Shown here piece after piece: positions 12,166-46,750 of a stretch of 64,000 nt of DNA. Where the stretch lies: positions 21,457,158-21,521,157 of the forward strand of contig NC_088645.1 in NCBI RefSeq assembly GCF_964019385.1, in the 5' to 3' direction. How positions within the stretch are numbered: position 1 is the first letter of the stretch; every line of letters begins with the position of its first letter. A program made the position numbers and the translations under genes. This stretch comes from Sycon ciliatum. Taxonomy: Eukaryota > Porifera > Calcarea > Leucosolenida > Sycettidae. The notes below the pieces were generated by a model, which saw only the letters and a list, made by a program, of their open reading frames with translations, made no database searches and was not told where the DNA came from.

Positions 12166-12183
12166 AATACTAGTACACTGTAC

Positions 12184-12227
12184 CAAGAGTAGATAAACAA
12201 AACAAAAAAAATGTTTATCTACTCTTG
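12184..12227. mobile_element. 44-bp minimal element of the CAAGAGTA family
   Basis: The sequence is CAAGAGTAGATAAACA, an A-rich loop of about 12 bases, and TGTTTATCTACTCTTG. It is flanked by ACTGTAC (12177-12183) and ACTGTAT (12228-12234), a 7-bp duplication with one mismatch. The arm is identical to the first 16 bp of the 306-bp copy at 15765-16070, so this looks like an extreme internal deletion derivative. Confidence 0.85.
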
Positions 12228-12234
12228 ACTGTAT

Positions 12235-12866
12235 ATAATTCTATGCACTATTCATTGGTTTGAGGGAAAGATGCAAACGGGAAAAGTCTGAAGAAAAAAA
12301 TTGGCTGTCACCACCATGCAATTGATTATTGTCATGGTTGTCGGCTTTATAACTTTAGTTGGAAGACAAAACTGTTCGGGTTGCATATTTAGGTTGAACC
12401 CCATGTCACAGTGTATGCCTGTTTCTGCAGTCTGTTCAGTCAGTTCAGGCAGCTGATTTCCTCAAGATTTCCGCGAGCATCAGACTAACTTGAAGTATCA
12501 ATCTAGTCCTGACTGGGTTGGTGTTGTAGATATGTGTGCATGTGTGTGTGTGCGTCTTGTGGCGCGCACTGTGCATCCTGCGGCAGCTGCTTCCGTTCGG
12601 TCCAGGGCAGGAATAGACACCGCTGCTCAGGTTCTCCCCCGGCCACACGTCAGTCTCGTGGTAACAGTCGTAGGTGACCTGAATCCTGGCGACCTCTCGT
12701 TGTGTCCCGGACGACGTGGGACGGAGTTCTCCTCTAGCTCTTCTCTCTCCGTTGCCCCTCCGGAGCCCACGTTACCCTTGTGGCAGTGGCTCGACAGGCC
12801 TGCAGGACAGGACAGGTGTGTTCACGCGCGCGTGCGTATGTGTGTATGTGTGTGTGAGCGCACGCG
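12235..12866. other. No gene recognised; flank of the TG tract
   Basis: The frame that opens here owes its length to the TG repeat and has no family features. Confidence 0.45.
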
Positions 12867-12868
12867 TG

Positions 12869-14897
12869 CGTGCATGTGTGTGTGTGTGTGTGTGTATGTG
12901 TGTGTGTGTGTGTGTGTGTGTGTGTGTGTGTGTGTGTGTGTGTGTGTGTGTGTGTGTGTGTGTGTGTGTGTGTGTGTGTGTGTGTGTGTGTGTGTGTGTG
13001 TGTGTGTGTGTGTGTGTGTGTGTGTGTGTGTGTGTGTGTGTGTGTGTGTGTGTGTGTGTGTGTGTGTGTGTGTGTGTGTGTGTGTGTGTGTGTGTGTGTG
13101 TGTGTGTGTGTGTGTGTGTGTGTGTGTGTGTGTGTGTGTGTGTGTGTGTGTGTGTGTGTGTGTGTGTGTGTGTGTGTGTGTGTGTGTGTGTGTGTGTGTG
13201 TGTGTGTGTGTGTGTGTGTGTGTGTGTGTGTGTGTGTGTGTGTGTGTGTGTGTGTGTGTGTGTGTGTGTGTGTGTGTGTGTGTGTGTGTGTGTGTGTGTG
13301 TGTGTGTGTGTGTGTGTGTGTGTGTGTGTGTGTGTGTGTGTGTGTGTGTGTGTGTGTGTGTGTGTGTGTGTGTGTGTGTGTGTGTGTGTGTGTGTGTGTG
13401 TGTGTGTGTGTGTGTGTGTGTGTGTGTGTGTGTGTGTGTGTGTGTGTGTGTGTGTGTGTGTGTGTGTGTGTGTGTGTGTGTGTGTGTGTGTGTGTGTGTG
13501 TGTGTGTGTGTGTGTGTGTGTGTGTGTGTGTGTGTGTGTGTGTGTGTGTGTGTGTGTGTGTGTGTGTGTGTGTGTGTGTGTGTGTGTGTGTGTGTGTGTG
13601 TGTGTGTGTGTGTGTGTGTGTGTGTGTGTGTGTGTGTGTGTGTGTGTGTGTGTGTGTGTGTGTGTGTGTGTGTGTGTGTGTGTGTGTGTGTGTGTGTGTG
13701 TGTGTGTGTGTGTGTGTGTGTGTGTGTGTGTGTGTGTGTGTGTGTGTGTGTGTGTGTGTGTGTGTGTGTGTGTGTGTGTGTGTGTGTGTGTGTGTGTGTG
13801 TGTGTGTGTGTGTGTGTGTGTGTGTGTGTGTGTGTGTGTGTGTGTGTGTGTGTGTGTGTGTGTGTGTGTGTGTGTGTGTGTGTGTGTGTGTGTGTGTGTG
13901 TGTGTGTGTGTGTGTGTGTGTGTGTGTGTGTGTGTGTGTGTGTGTGTGTGTGTGTGTGTGTGTGTGTGTGTGTGTGTGTGTGTGTGTGTGTGTGTGTGTG
14001 TGTGTGTGTGTGTGTGTGTGTGTGTGTGTGTGTGTGTGTGTGTGTGTGTGTGTGTGTGTGTGTGTGTGTGTGTGTGTGTGTGTGTGTGTGTGTGTGTGTG
14101 TGTGTGTGTGTGTGTGTGTGTGTGTGTGTGTGTGTGTGTGTGTGTGTGTGTGTGTGTGTGTGTGTGTGTGTGTGTGTGTGTGTGTGTGTGTGTGTGTGTG
14201 TGTGTGTGTGTGTGTGTGTGTGTGTGTGTGTGTGTGTGTGTGTGTGTGTGTGTGTGTGTGTGTGTGTGTGTGTGTGTGTGTGTGTGTGTGTGTGTGTGTG
14301 TGTGTGTGTGTGTGTGTGTGTGTGTGTGTGTGTGTGTGTGTGTGTGTGTGTGTGTGTGTGTGTGTGTGTGTGTGTGTGTGTGTGTGTGTGTGTGTGTGTG
14401 TGTGTGTGTGTGTGTGTGTGTGTGTGTGTGTGTGTGTGTGTGTGTGTGTGTGTGTGTGTGTGTGTGTGTGTGTGTGTGTGTGTGTGTGTGTGTGTGTGTG
14501 TGTGTGTGTGTGTGTGTGTGTGTGTGTGTGTGTGTGTGTGTGTGTGTGTGTGTGTGTGTGTGTGTGTGTGTGTGTGTGTGTGTGTGTGTGTGTGTGTGTG
14601 TGTGTGTGTGTGTGTGTGTGTGTGTGTGTGTGTGTGTGTGTGTGTGTGTGTGTGTGTGTGTGTGTGTGTGTGTGTGTGTGTGTGTGTGTGTGTGTGTGTG
14701 TGTGTGTGTGTGTGTGTGTGTGTGTGTGTGTGTGTGTGTGTGTGTGTGTGTGTGTGTGTGTGTGTGTGTGTGTGTGTGTGTGTGTGTGTGTGTGTGTGTG
14801 TGTGTGTGTGTGTGTGTGTGTGTGTGTGTGTGTGTGTGTGTGTGTGTGTGTGTGTGTGTGTGTGTGTGTGTGTGTGTGTGTGTGTGTGTGTGTGTGA
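12869..14897. repeat. (TG)n microsatellite, about 2 kb
   Basis: After a few interrupted units (TGTATG near 12893) the tract is pure TG from about 12897 to 14897, roughly 1,000 units without a visible substitution. Long translated frames here (Cys-Val or Thr-His repeats) are artefacts of the repeat. Confidence 0.98.
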
Positions 14898-15065
14898 TTT
14901 CCAATCGAGAGGTTGCGGGTTAAATTCCCGACGATTATGGTCGCACACGTCTTCCTTCTCTTTCTCGGACTCTTCCTGACTTTTCTTTCATTCTCCTGGG
15001 TGGTTACCGACAGCCAGTGTATGCCGGAGTATGTGGTGTGATGGGTGTGTGTAGAAAAAAATGGA
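14896..15065 (+). repeat. tRNA-derived SINE-like sequence
   Basis: TCGAGAGGTTGCGGGTTAAA followed by TTCCCG has a B-box-like core with the T-arm GGGTT/CCC arrangement. It is followed by a CT-rich body and an A-rich end (AGAAAAAAATGGAAAAATGA). The TG tract abuts its 5' side. Confidence 0.5.
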
Positions 15066-15114
15066 AAAATGAAAAATAGGGATTCACTGGCCAGAAAAAA
15101 TCACTTGAAACAGC

Positions 15115-44941: not shown

Positions 44942-44948
44942 AATAGTA

Positions 44949-45060
44949 CAGTCGACCTACCCTTATAACGATAACCCCTATAACGATATTACCCTTATAA
45001 CGATAATTTTATGTCAAACCAAATCACTCCATTGACTTTTGTATACTAGTAGATAGCATA
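44949..45060 (+). repeat. Truncated copy of the CAGTCGACCTACCC MITE
   Basis: It begins at TA with CAGTCGACCTACCCTTATAA and continues to TCCATTGACTTTTGTATAC, matching the 39477-40069 element inverted, then stops without the second end. Confidence 0.75.
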
Positions 45061-45256
45061 GCATCGCAGCGATGTTTTCGTTCTCACAGAGTGTATTCCG
45101 TGACCTACTGTTCTTCATTACTGTCTCTAGTGATGGCAAGACAGCCTGACGTCGCCCAAAGTCCCTGCGGAAGCAATTCACTGCCCTCCTCGTCCATTCA
45201 GGGGCTCATTTTACACATTTTACACAAAATGGCAAAGCACCCACCACTAGTTATAC

Positions 45257-45270
45257 CAAGAGTACTCTTG
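45257..45270. mobile_element. 14-bp palindrome, smallest CAAGAGTA-family form
   Basis: CAAGAGTACTCTTG is simply the two 8-bp ends fused through a shared TA. GTTATAC lies at 45250-45256 and 45271-45277. It abuts the 657-bp member that uses the same 7-bp sequence. Confidence 0.8.
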
Positions 45271-45277
45271 GTTATAC

Positions 45278-45934
45278 CAAGAGTACATGAAAACCAGAGT
45301 GTGCAGCTCGGATGGGTTGCTGTCACGGCGAAATTCCGTGATTACATCATTTTAGTGATGTAGTGCGTACAAGCAGGATTCAAGGCCAAGCAGGTCTCTT
45401 TCTAATTAGTAGTAATTCTGCACAACTGCAGCTCAGTTGTACGCACTACGCCACTTCCCGCCTCAGATCTGGGCCAAATATCTGTCCCCGGGGAAAATTG
45501 CAATTCCGCGGCCGCGTTTTTTGCGATTTTTTAAAAGACCGCGTTTTCCGCGATTTTCCCGCGTTTTTTGAACTTTTTTGTTGCACTACACGTACACACA
45601 GTGCACTGTTCGATCAGCAACGTCTCGTCGTGGCGGCTTTTTACTCAAATATGACGAGTGCTTACACCAGAGACTTGTAACTGATTGATTTCACTACATA
45701 CTCACTGAAAATTGCCGCACATCAATATTATTCACCGCATATTTACCGCATATTTACCGCAAATTCACCGCAAATTATGCCATATTATGCCGCGTTTTTC
45801 CCCGCGTTTTTTGCGATTTTTTCCGCAATTTTCCCCGGGGACAGAAATATGATGTAATCACGGAATTTCGCCGTGACAGACACCCATAGCAGAAAAGGCC
45901 CCAAGCTGCACACTCTGGTTTTCATGTACTCTTG
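45278..45934. mobile_element. 657-bp CAAGAGTA-family MITE
   Basis: Ends CAAGAGTACATGAAAACCAG and inverse, running on through AGTGTGCAGCT. GTTATAC at 45271-45277 and 45935-45941. It carries a nested CTGTCCCCGGGG element. Confidence 0.85.
45482..45844. mobile_element. CTGTCCCCGGGG-type MITE, copy 2 (inverted)
   Basis: Same ends as the 44567-44941 copy; AAATAT at 45476-45481 and 45845-45850. The interior is the reverse complement of copy 1 with small differences. Confidence 0.85.
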
Positions 45935-46750
45935 GTTATACCAACGTGGCAGGGAGAATTAAATTATACGCACCAAATTTTCTGGTCAATGTTGATCTAC
46001 GATAAACTGGCTCTCATTTGCCACCACCCATGTTTCGATACAGCCATCCGGAGCAGAGAAACAGCCAGAAGAAAAGCAAATTTTACACATGTGTTAAAAA
46101 ATGCCAAATGTTAAAAAAAGCCAAATCACCTCGTAGTAGTGTGAGCTCCAAGAGCAAACCTTTTCTTATGAATATTTATGAACTTTTTTATACAGAAAAC
46201 AGGTACAGGGTTTACCCATTCAATTTGTCTGTATTTCGGCCAACAAAGGCCCTGATCTGTACATCAGGGAGTCGCACAAGCCCGGGTTTGTGTGACTCCA
46301 CGTCACGAATCTACTCACACGATCAGTACTGTACATGTACATGAACTGTTCCAAAAAATCGGCTTTGGCTCGATTTTGGTGCGGGATGGCCCGGGAATCT
46401 CTATTTTTGGTTGGTCTCGCCTAAAGGACTAATTCCCCTGCACATTGGTGTTCATCACGCGTCAACTGTGCATGATTGCACATGTATGTAGCTGCAGCCT
46501 ACAGGTAGCGTTACAATTAACTACAATACCAATAACGGAAATGTTCTGGCGTGAAACTCTGAACTTGATCGGAACGCATTACGCACTTTCGGTACTTAGA
46601 CACACACACACACGTGCCACGTGCACACACGGGCAAAGAAAGCAGCAGCAACGAAGACGGTGACGCTTCACTAACCATTGTTCCTATCAAACAAATTTGA
46701 AAAAACAAACACGCATGCACACTGAGACAAAACATGCAGCTCCAAGCTGC

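Follow-up and report, generated by a model that had tools for sequence, protein, structure and literature searches.

Short insertions with fused transposon ends in the genome of Sycon ciliatum resemble excision footprints of P-superfamily elements

The genome of the sponge Sycon ciliatum carries a family of inverted-repeat insertions that range from several hundred base pairs down to 14 bp. They are best explained, at a probability of about 0.9, as cut-and-paste transposons of the P superfamily, with the short forms representing end-joined scars of excision. In structure, the short forms resemble the footprints of P-type excision; they are almost certainly scars of this kind, and they number thousands genome-wide.

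The proposed course of events begins with full elements (306, 416 and 657 bp), which would be mobilised by a transposase encoded elsewhere and would enter a palindrome-like GTANTAC target, giving rise to a 7-bp duplication. During excision, the transferred strand would be cut exactly at the element end and the other strand 16-18 nt within the terminal repeat, directly before AGAGTGTGCA. The donor site would retain both 7-bp duplications, each extended by a long 3' overhang that derives from the element, and fusion of these overhangs by end joining (through short homology, directly or with filler) would produce a CAAGAGTA...TACTCTTG scar 14 to some 50 bp long. If another copy later inserts in a surviving 7-bp duplication, rows of elements and scars with one common duplication would result. 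We infer the two-strand cut, its repair and the order of these events from the products. The sharp limit of the retained terminus in three subfamilies suggests that the cut is widely staggered, lies within the repeat and leaves the donor with a 3' overhang.

Elements in the window

The window is a stretch of 64,000 nucleotides (contig NC_088645.1, positions 21,457,158 to 21,521,157), and it contains the following features, numbered from its first nucleotide and given without strand.

12184..12227, 44-bp short form (putative excision footprint): 17 nt of left terminus, an 11-nt A-rich filler and 16 nt of right terminus, as judged by eye against the terminus of the 306-bp element
15765..16070, 306-bp non-autonomous element: terminus CAAGAGTAGATAAACAAGAGTGTGC, duplication ATATTAA
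33483..33898, 416-bp non-autonomous element: terminus CAAGAGTACATAAACCAGAGTGTGCAACT, duplication CTGGCAG
33906..43619, 9,714-bp stretch: bounded by CAAGAGTAGA and TCTACTCTTG, CTGGCAG at both edges
39151..39422, diverged copy of the 306-bp element without the outer ends, inside the 9.7-kb stretch: 96% identical to positions 7-280
43659..43680, 22-bp short form (putative excision footprint): duplication ATAACAT
45257..45270, 14-bp short form CAAGAGTACTCTTG: duplication GTTATAC, common to the adjoining 657-bp element; presumably joined at a shared GTAC
45278..45934, 657-bp non-autonomous element: terminus CAAGAGTACATGAAAACCAGAGTGTGCAGCT, duplication GTTATAC

The first-pass annotation listed six members, whose ends, coordinates and lengths all proved right on direct reading. 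Their 7-bp duplications are exact in five; the 44-bp form has the single mismatch already recorded there (ACTGTAC at 12177-12183, ACTGTAT at 12228-12234). The 9,714-bp stretch is a seventh member that had been overlooked. It has CTGGCAG in common with its 416-bp neighbour, in the order CTGGCAG-[416 bp]-CTGGCAG-[9.7 kb]-CTGGCAG, and other repeats are nested within it. A Pfam scan of 10 of the 18 open frames of at least 110 aa that overlap 33900-43620 gave no match at E 0.01, and none of the 44 PF21787-type P-transposase matches found genome-wide falls inside the window. The full elements of the window are partly palindromic.

When each CAAGAGT end in the window is paired with downstream ACTCTTG ends, identical outer 7-mers occur in 8 of 69 pairs, against 0.004 expected by chance. 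These 8 pairs come from only six elements at four loci, because the duplication is triple at two of the loci.

Genome-wide occurrence and target duplications

In the 538-Mb assembly, the pattern CAAGAGTA-N0-30-TACTCTTG, corresponding to forms of 16-46 bp, occurs 3007 times and its reversed control twice. The 14-bp form is found 193 times (control 2) and CAAGAGTATACTCTTG 22 times (control 0). A run of CAAGAGTATACTCTTG with a 20-bp period (L112) was considered as a row of scars and is instead a small satellite; two of its four rows were dropped as copies from the flank statistics below and two were kept. The count falls from 3007 at gaps of 0-30 to 559 at gaps of 31-61, where tandem scars and poly-C fillers are present among the 50 matches listed.

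Flanks were examined for 86 short forms among the matches listed, and removal of 13 same-locus copies left 73. The 7-bp duplication is exact in 28 of these and differs at one position in 12 more, while 33 have two or more mismatches and thus no convincing duplication. In none of the 73 is the longest exact duplication 5, 6 or 8-12 bp, and in four it is 4 bp; unpaired flanks, used as a control, agree at all seven positions in 0.17%. The earlier proposal of a family of transposons that duplicate 7 bp is supported. For the 16-bp form, the duplication is exact in 1 of 11 cases. By hand count, the exact duplications have T at position 2 in 24 of 28 and A at position 6 in 23 of 28. In the base table, which pools both strands, GTANTAC is the commonest base per position, with letters other than T2 and A6 weaker. 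The 28 sequences are otherwise varied, which speaks against one shared target. In the 306-bp subfamily, the only one with both classes counted, scars are fewer than full copies (128 short forms vs 1509 full termini, or about 750 copies).

The retained terminus and the origin of the short forms

The length of terminus kept at each end was read in 49 short forms of the 306-bp subfamily, 69 of the 416-bp and 66 of the 657-bp subfamily. For the 306-bp subfamily, 16 nt are kept in 34 of 98 ends and 17 nt in 5, with none at 18-25 nt; one palindrome, a 48-bp form with a 4-bp overlap, keeps 26 nt at both ends. For the 416-bp subfamily, 16 nt are kept in 41 of 138 ends, 17 in 10 and 18, the maximum, in 4. 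The 657-bp subfamily keeps 18 nt in 49 of 132 ends, 19 in 10 and a maximum of 20 in 1; the search patterns for these last two subfamilies permitted lengths above the observed maxima. In all three the mode is the final base before the inner AGAGTG, and AGAGTGTGCA, which full elements keep, is missing from nearly all sampled short forms. The CAAGAGTCC subfamily, whose spacer has 19 nt, would be expected to show a limit of 19 nt. Blunt, overlapping and filler joints number 16, 17 and 16 (306-bp subfamily), 23, 4 and 42 (416-bp) and 32, 4 and 30 (657-bp), filler being somewhat overcounted in the latter two because forms of sister subfamilies were scored against a single terminus. Somewhat more likely than otherwise, it is AGAGTGTGCA that fixes the inner cut in this transposase lineage, whatever its distance from the element end, spacers of 16 and 18 nt giving overhangs of 16 and 18 nt, and untemplated end joining has been frequent, leaving thousands of scars.

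The first-pass annotation offered two accounts of the fused-end forms: that a terminus of some 8 bp is enough for transposition, or that they are an end-joining product left after excision. The second is strongly supported, as the retained terminus ends at one internal boundary in each of the three subfamilies sampled; the first is not supported. If some 8 bp per terminus were enough for the transposase, elements of 14-46 bp could themselves move, which would agree with their kept target duplications, with the presence of identical forms at several sites (a 36-bp palindrome in 9 of 66) and with the 193 occurrences of the 14-bp form, whose duplications differ where flanks were read. However, most of the recurring sequences are simple joints of a kind that end joining would make repeatedly, the recurrent complex-filler forms with flanks read (L013-L015) are one copied locus, mobility does not predict the AGAGTG limit of the kept terminus, and the sampled short forms nearly all lack a motif that full elements keep; we consider mobility very unlikely. 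The simple recurring joints run from full overhang to full overhang, or lie at GTAC or inside AGATCT, and further recurring filler forms sit on one contig (C1).

Equally improbable as a general source is internal deletion, by replication of a hairpin-forming element or by incomplete gap repair after excision. The elements are partly palindromic, the 48-bp form with its 26 + 26 nt fits such an origin, and incomplete gap repair is the chief source of the P products recovered in wild-type flies (PMC2895639, in part). At least three of the 50 matches listed at gaps of 31-61 retain, as judged by eye, sequence beyond the AGAGTG boundary; these few longer forms may be internal deletions, and a minority of short forms may well arise in this way. 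Breakpoints would nevertheless be expected to spread into the repeat and further, for instance inside AGAGTGTGCAACT or deeper, whereas none of the 98 ends falls at 18-25 nt and the retained lengths do not exceed 18 nt (138 ends) and 20 nt (132 ends).

In nine copies of a single repeat, a short form sits at the identical place but has five different centres, a pattern that either independent excisions or subsequent change within a single scar could produce. Searching with the 22-bp form and its surroundings (221 bp) gave 38 matches and no empty site; apart from the self and fold-back matches, all begin at query position 141-148, the edge of another repeat.

A candidate autonomous relative

The first-pass annotation had proposed a search for a transposase-bearing copy with these ends. 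A relative was found, a putatively autonomous 5,923-bp element that starts with CAAGAGTC and not CAAGAGTA. One copy has perfect 33-bp inverted repeats, CAAGAGTCCATAACCCCCCAGAGTGTGCAACTC; the copies are 99.4-99.9% alike, and all three that were read have 7-bp duplications (TTATCGG, GTCGAAT, GTTTACT). The element encodes a frame of 839 aa with a match to PF21787 (TNP-like RNase H) at E 6.8e-10; two related frames, 50-51% identical to that frame, match at E 4.1e-11 (840 aa) and E 8e-8 (883 aa), all three above the curated cut-off. Because the ends of the 5,923-bp element differ and its similarity to the window elements is confined to about the outer 50 bp, the 839-aa frame is not assignable as the transposase of the window subfamilies. 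A 3067-bp copy of the 306-bp subfamily (L119), with the duplication GTAACAC and a 309-aa open frame, was also considered as autonomous; none of the 44 P-transposase matches lies there, and it is probably non-autonomous.

At E 1, the models for THAP, for the GTP-binding insertion and for the C-terminal RNase H part are all unmatched in the 839-aa frame, and a sequence search against solved structures gave nothing at E 0.01. PF21788, the GTP-binding insertion, is also unmatched at E 1 in the other two frames of the 839-aa clade; four further P-type frames were scanned, and three of them match it below its curated cut-off. THAP is unmatched at E 1 in all seven frames, four of which are cut at the locus edge, and an upstream exon may exist. 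The THAP domain is common but not essential in the P superfamily.

Membership of a different superfamily with 6-8 bp duplications, such as Dada or hAT, would make the likeness to P coincidental. Duplication length by itself is not decisive, and a single P-transposase Pfam domain is matched in the 839-aa clade. That domain is nevertheless matched above cut-off in three related frames, the element encoding the 839-aa frame has perfect CAAGAGT repeats together with its 7-bp duplications, and the target consensus is identical to that of Galileo, so that a coincidence of this kind is highly improbable. The earlier suggestion of P as a candidate superfamily proved right.

Implications

To our knowledge, the fly enzyme is the only P transposase whose long staggered cut has been measured. 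In Sycon ciliatum, the genome alone appears to record the position of the cut in three subfamilies, shifting with the inner motif. If true, the scars are a natural germ-line catalogue of double-strand-break repair: thousands of natural joints from a non-model genome, each formed at a defined break, which would serve as a test set for ideas on filler synthesis and on joining through short homology. In annotation, palindromic insertions of 14-46 bp with 7-bp repeats, of which there are several thousand, are best read as scars instead of unexplained palindromes. A literature search over titles and abstract openings, covering few subscription journals, did not return a comparable genome-wide scar set.

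Comparison with known systems

Dada elements have a duplication length near 7 bp. They insert into multicopy small RNA genes (PMC3706591, PMC8869645, both in part), whereas the duplications in Sycon ciliatum are varied. The zebrafish Pdre / THAP9 system combines a P-type transposase with cognate elements (PMC10983969, in part). It differs in its 13-bp repeats, distant 12-bp inner repeats and 8-bp duplications.

Ends of the form CA...TG are typical of the P superfamily and are present both in the 33-bp repeats of the 5,923-bp copy and in the window elements. Galileo, which is grouped with 1360 of Drosophila, also ends in CA...TG, with a terminal sequence unlike that of the window elements. Its inverted repeats vary widely in length, as against 33 bp in the putative autonomous copy. 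Both systems have the 7-bp duplication, the GTANTAC target, a P-type transposase and many non-autonomous copies of varied length; in Galileo, GTANTAC lies within a longer palindromic motif (PMC4168063, in part). The portion of that paper drawn on here does not describe a genome-wide set of excision scars for Galileo.

In the Drosophila P element, the other strand is cut inside the inverted repeat, giving a 17-nt 3' overhang (PMC7776569), and in the scars left by end joining the target duplication survives together with as many as 17 nt on each side (PMC2895639, in part). Most P repair products recovered from wild-type flies reflect incomplete gap synthesis and not direct joining, according to the same part of that source. 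The P element differs in its 8-bp duplication, its 31-bp repeats of other sequence and its THAP domain, which was not detected in the Sycon ciliatum frames. The earlier remark that no family like this had been described holds for the sequence, as far as the searches show, and fails for the kind, given the 7-bp GTANTAC duplications of Galileo and the joints of fly P. With the latter, the Sycon ciliatum elements would share cut-and-paste movement and a cut inside the repeat, and their joints are similar, the stagger being 17 nt in Drosophila and apparently 16 or 18 nt here, depending on the subfamily.

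Members in the window

Direct reading confirms the ends, lengths and outer 7-mers of all six members claimed in the first-pass annotation, with one mismatch, in the 44-bp form. The window is bases 21,457,158-21,521,157 of contig C3, in an assembly of 538 Mb and 313 contigs. Pairing each CAAGAGT end with each downstream ACTCTTG end in the window and comparing the outer 7-mers gave identical 7-mers for 8 of 69 pairs, against 0.004 expected, and revealed a seventh member.

Family member found by the end-pairing test in the window
33906-43619: 9,714-bp member, CTGGCAG at both edges

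The locus is thus ordered CTGGCAG-416 bp-CTGGCAG-9.7 kb-CTGGCAG, the same layout as GTTATAC-14 bp-GTTATAC-657 bp-GTTATAC. The 9.7-kb member contains nested repeats, including a diverged 306-bp element, and 10 scanned frames (of 18) gave no Pfam match. Just within its left end, a stretch of 3.07 kb (33915-36980), whose 144-nt arms are fully complementary, is probably a nested element of a different family, and a 515-nt inverted repeat, 99% complementary, lies at 40070-40584/42996-43510. Elsewhere in the window, a 400-nt inverted repeat, 96% complementary (16073-16472/16533-16932), starts at most 3 bp from the end of the 306-bp element, a nearly pure TG repeat spans about 2 kb (12870-14897), and long frames at 10303-11892 (-) and 54110-56044 (+) resemble non-LTR reverse transcriptases, their motifs being judged by eye.

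Abundance and target duplications

The family is very large across the genome. Counting overlaps and same-locus copies (the latter 13 of 86 rows in the flank sample) but omitting ends that start CAAGAGTC, CAAGAGTG or CAAGAGTT, the pattern CAAGAGTA-N0-30-TACTCTTG is found 3007 times (2 when read backwards), its version with a gap of 31-61 occurs 559 times (3 in the control), and the 14-bp form 193 times (2 in the control).

The flank sample comprised 86 short forms from among the first matches listed for the genome-wide patterns, or 73 after the 13 same-locus copies were dropped. In this sample the proposed 7-bp duplications exceed chance, being exact in 28 of these 73 (0.17% for randomly paired flanks), with one mismatch in a further 12. 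Nor does their length vary widely: the longest exact duplication is 7 bp in 28 forms, 4 bp in 4 and shorter than 4 bp in 41; no form has one of 5 or 6 bp or one longer than 7 bp. Exact duplications flank 21/42 forms longer than 16 bp, 6/20 of the 14-bp form and 1/11 of the 16-bp form; the 16-bp set may contain chance or old cases, as well as a small satellite. Taking the most frequent letter at each position, the duplications give GTANTAC, within a wider target motif that has T three bases before and A three bases after.

Outside the window, too, elements form rows that share one duplication. At 6 of 146 short-form edges (5 loci, one of them entered once per side) another CAAGA end is found at a distance of exactly 7 bp, against 0 to 2 such ends at each other offset from 0 to 24, with satellite L112 set aside. 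We infer that these rows reflect repeated use of one good target; a duplication flanked by CTCTTG and CAAGAG ends matches the wider target motif as well. L112 (C5:10254220-10254480), in which CAAGAGTATACTCTTG repeats at a 20-bp period, is perhaps a scar turned small satellite.

Where the retained terminus stops

For the short forms, the point at which the terminal sequence ends is the deciding evidence. Among 98 ends from 49 forms of the 306-bp subfamily, the retained terminus is 16 nt long at 34 ends, 17 nt at 5 and 26 nt at the 2 ends of one palindrome, with no end in the range 18-25. The patterns for the other two subfamilies demanded 14 or 15 nt at one end, leaving only the upper limit free of selection: in the 416-bp subfamily (69 forms, 138 ends) 41 ends stop at 16 nt, 10 at 17, 4 at 18 and none beyond, and in the 657-bp subfamily (66 forms, 132 ends) 49 stop at 18 nt, 10 at 19, 1 at 20 and none beyond. 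The modal stop in all three is the last base preceding AGAGTG. Among ends reaching this boundary, 5/39, 14/55 and 11/60 (306-, 416- and 657-bp; 26-nt palindrome excluded) pass it by one or two bases, about the excess given by chance match of the next base. In three subfamilies the retained terminus stops as P-type excision predicts, which strongly supports the suggestion that the fused-end forms are an end-joining product after excision.

Several results count against reading the short forms as excision scars. Many lack a clear duplication, and one retains 26 nt at both ends. Judged by eye, at least 3 of the 50 matches listed for gap 31-61 extend beyond the AGAGTG boundary; these may be internal deletions. 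Full copies clearly exceed scars in the 306-bp subfamily, with 1509 full termini and 128 short forms genome-wide. A search around one short form of the window yielded no empty-site pair.

One repeat in nine copies (L008-L012, L100-L104) carries a short form at one site with five different centres. Why do the centres differ? They can be explained by separate excisions or, alternatively, by later change of one scar.

A transposase-bearing relative

A genome search with the P-transposase RNase H family gave 44 matches and located a relative of 5,923 bp (first copy), three copies of which, read whole, are 99.4-99.9% alike and flanked by the 7-bp duplications TTATCGG, GTCGAAT and GTTTACT. The first copy has perfect 33-bp inverted repeats, CAAGAGTCCATAACCCCCCAGAGTGTGCAACTC. 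The relative carries an 839-aa frame that matches PF21787 (E 6.8e-10). The window elements match the relative only over about the outer 50 bp, as CAAGAGT, a spacer and AGAGTGTGCA-(A/G)CT. Therefore the exact subfamilies of the window look non-autonomous and would be moved by a transposase encoded elsewhere. Two related frames, 840 and 883 aa long and 50-51% identical to the 839-aa frame, also match PF21787. No THAP domain was detected in 7 scanned P-type frames, and a sequence search of solved structures gave no match.

Within the 5,923-bp transposon, a 43-bp short form (L050 3468-3510) is present in all three read copies and is perhaps a scar carried by subsequent transposition. In a second P-type clade, three of the four long frames (L021, L029, L031) match the C2H2 zinc-finger model Zap1_zf1 above cut-off and L028 shows weak zinc-finger matches only; none of the four gave a THAP match, and a swap of the DNA-binding domain is possible. 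A 3067-bp copy of the 306-bp subfamily (L119, C1:16510570-16513710; duplication GTAACAC) contains a 309-aa open frame, perhaps captured sequence.

Comparison with the Drosophila P element

The first-pass annotation knew of no described family like this. The element belongs to a known superfamily or lies close to one, and scars of this kind are already known from fly experiments; what stands is that a literature search of titles and abstract beginnings found no report of such scars as a natural set across a genome, nor of a retained-terminus limit that moves with an inner motif.

Blunt, overlapping and filled joints number 16/17/16 in the 306-bp, 23/4/42 in the 416-bp and 32/4/30 in the 657-bp subfamily. 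By inspection, the 14-bp form appears to be a joint at the shared GTAC and, in the 306-bp subfamily, the 20-bp form a joint inside AGATCT; the 44-bp window form reads as an A-rich filler between 17 nt and 16 nt of terminus. This is the pattern that P-type excision ought to leave. In Drosophila, the P transposase cut on the other strand falls 17 bp into the 31-bp repeat (PMC7776569), and P excision joints in spn-A and spn-A mus308 flies retain at most 17 nt of terminus per side between 8-bp duplications, joined by short homology, bluntly or with filler (PMC2895639). In wild-type flies, the same paper attributes most recovered P products to incomplete gap synthesis (PMC2895639), so direct joining is not the main fly route. 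The joints of Sycon ciliatum fall into the same three classes as those of Drosophila P, but the duplication is 7 bp rather than 8 bp, and the retained terminus, at most 17 nt per side in the fly, has modes here of 16, 16 and 18 nt.
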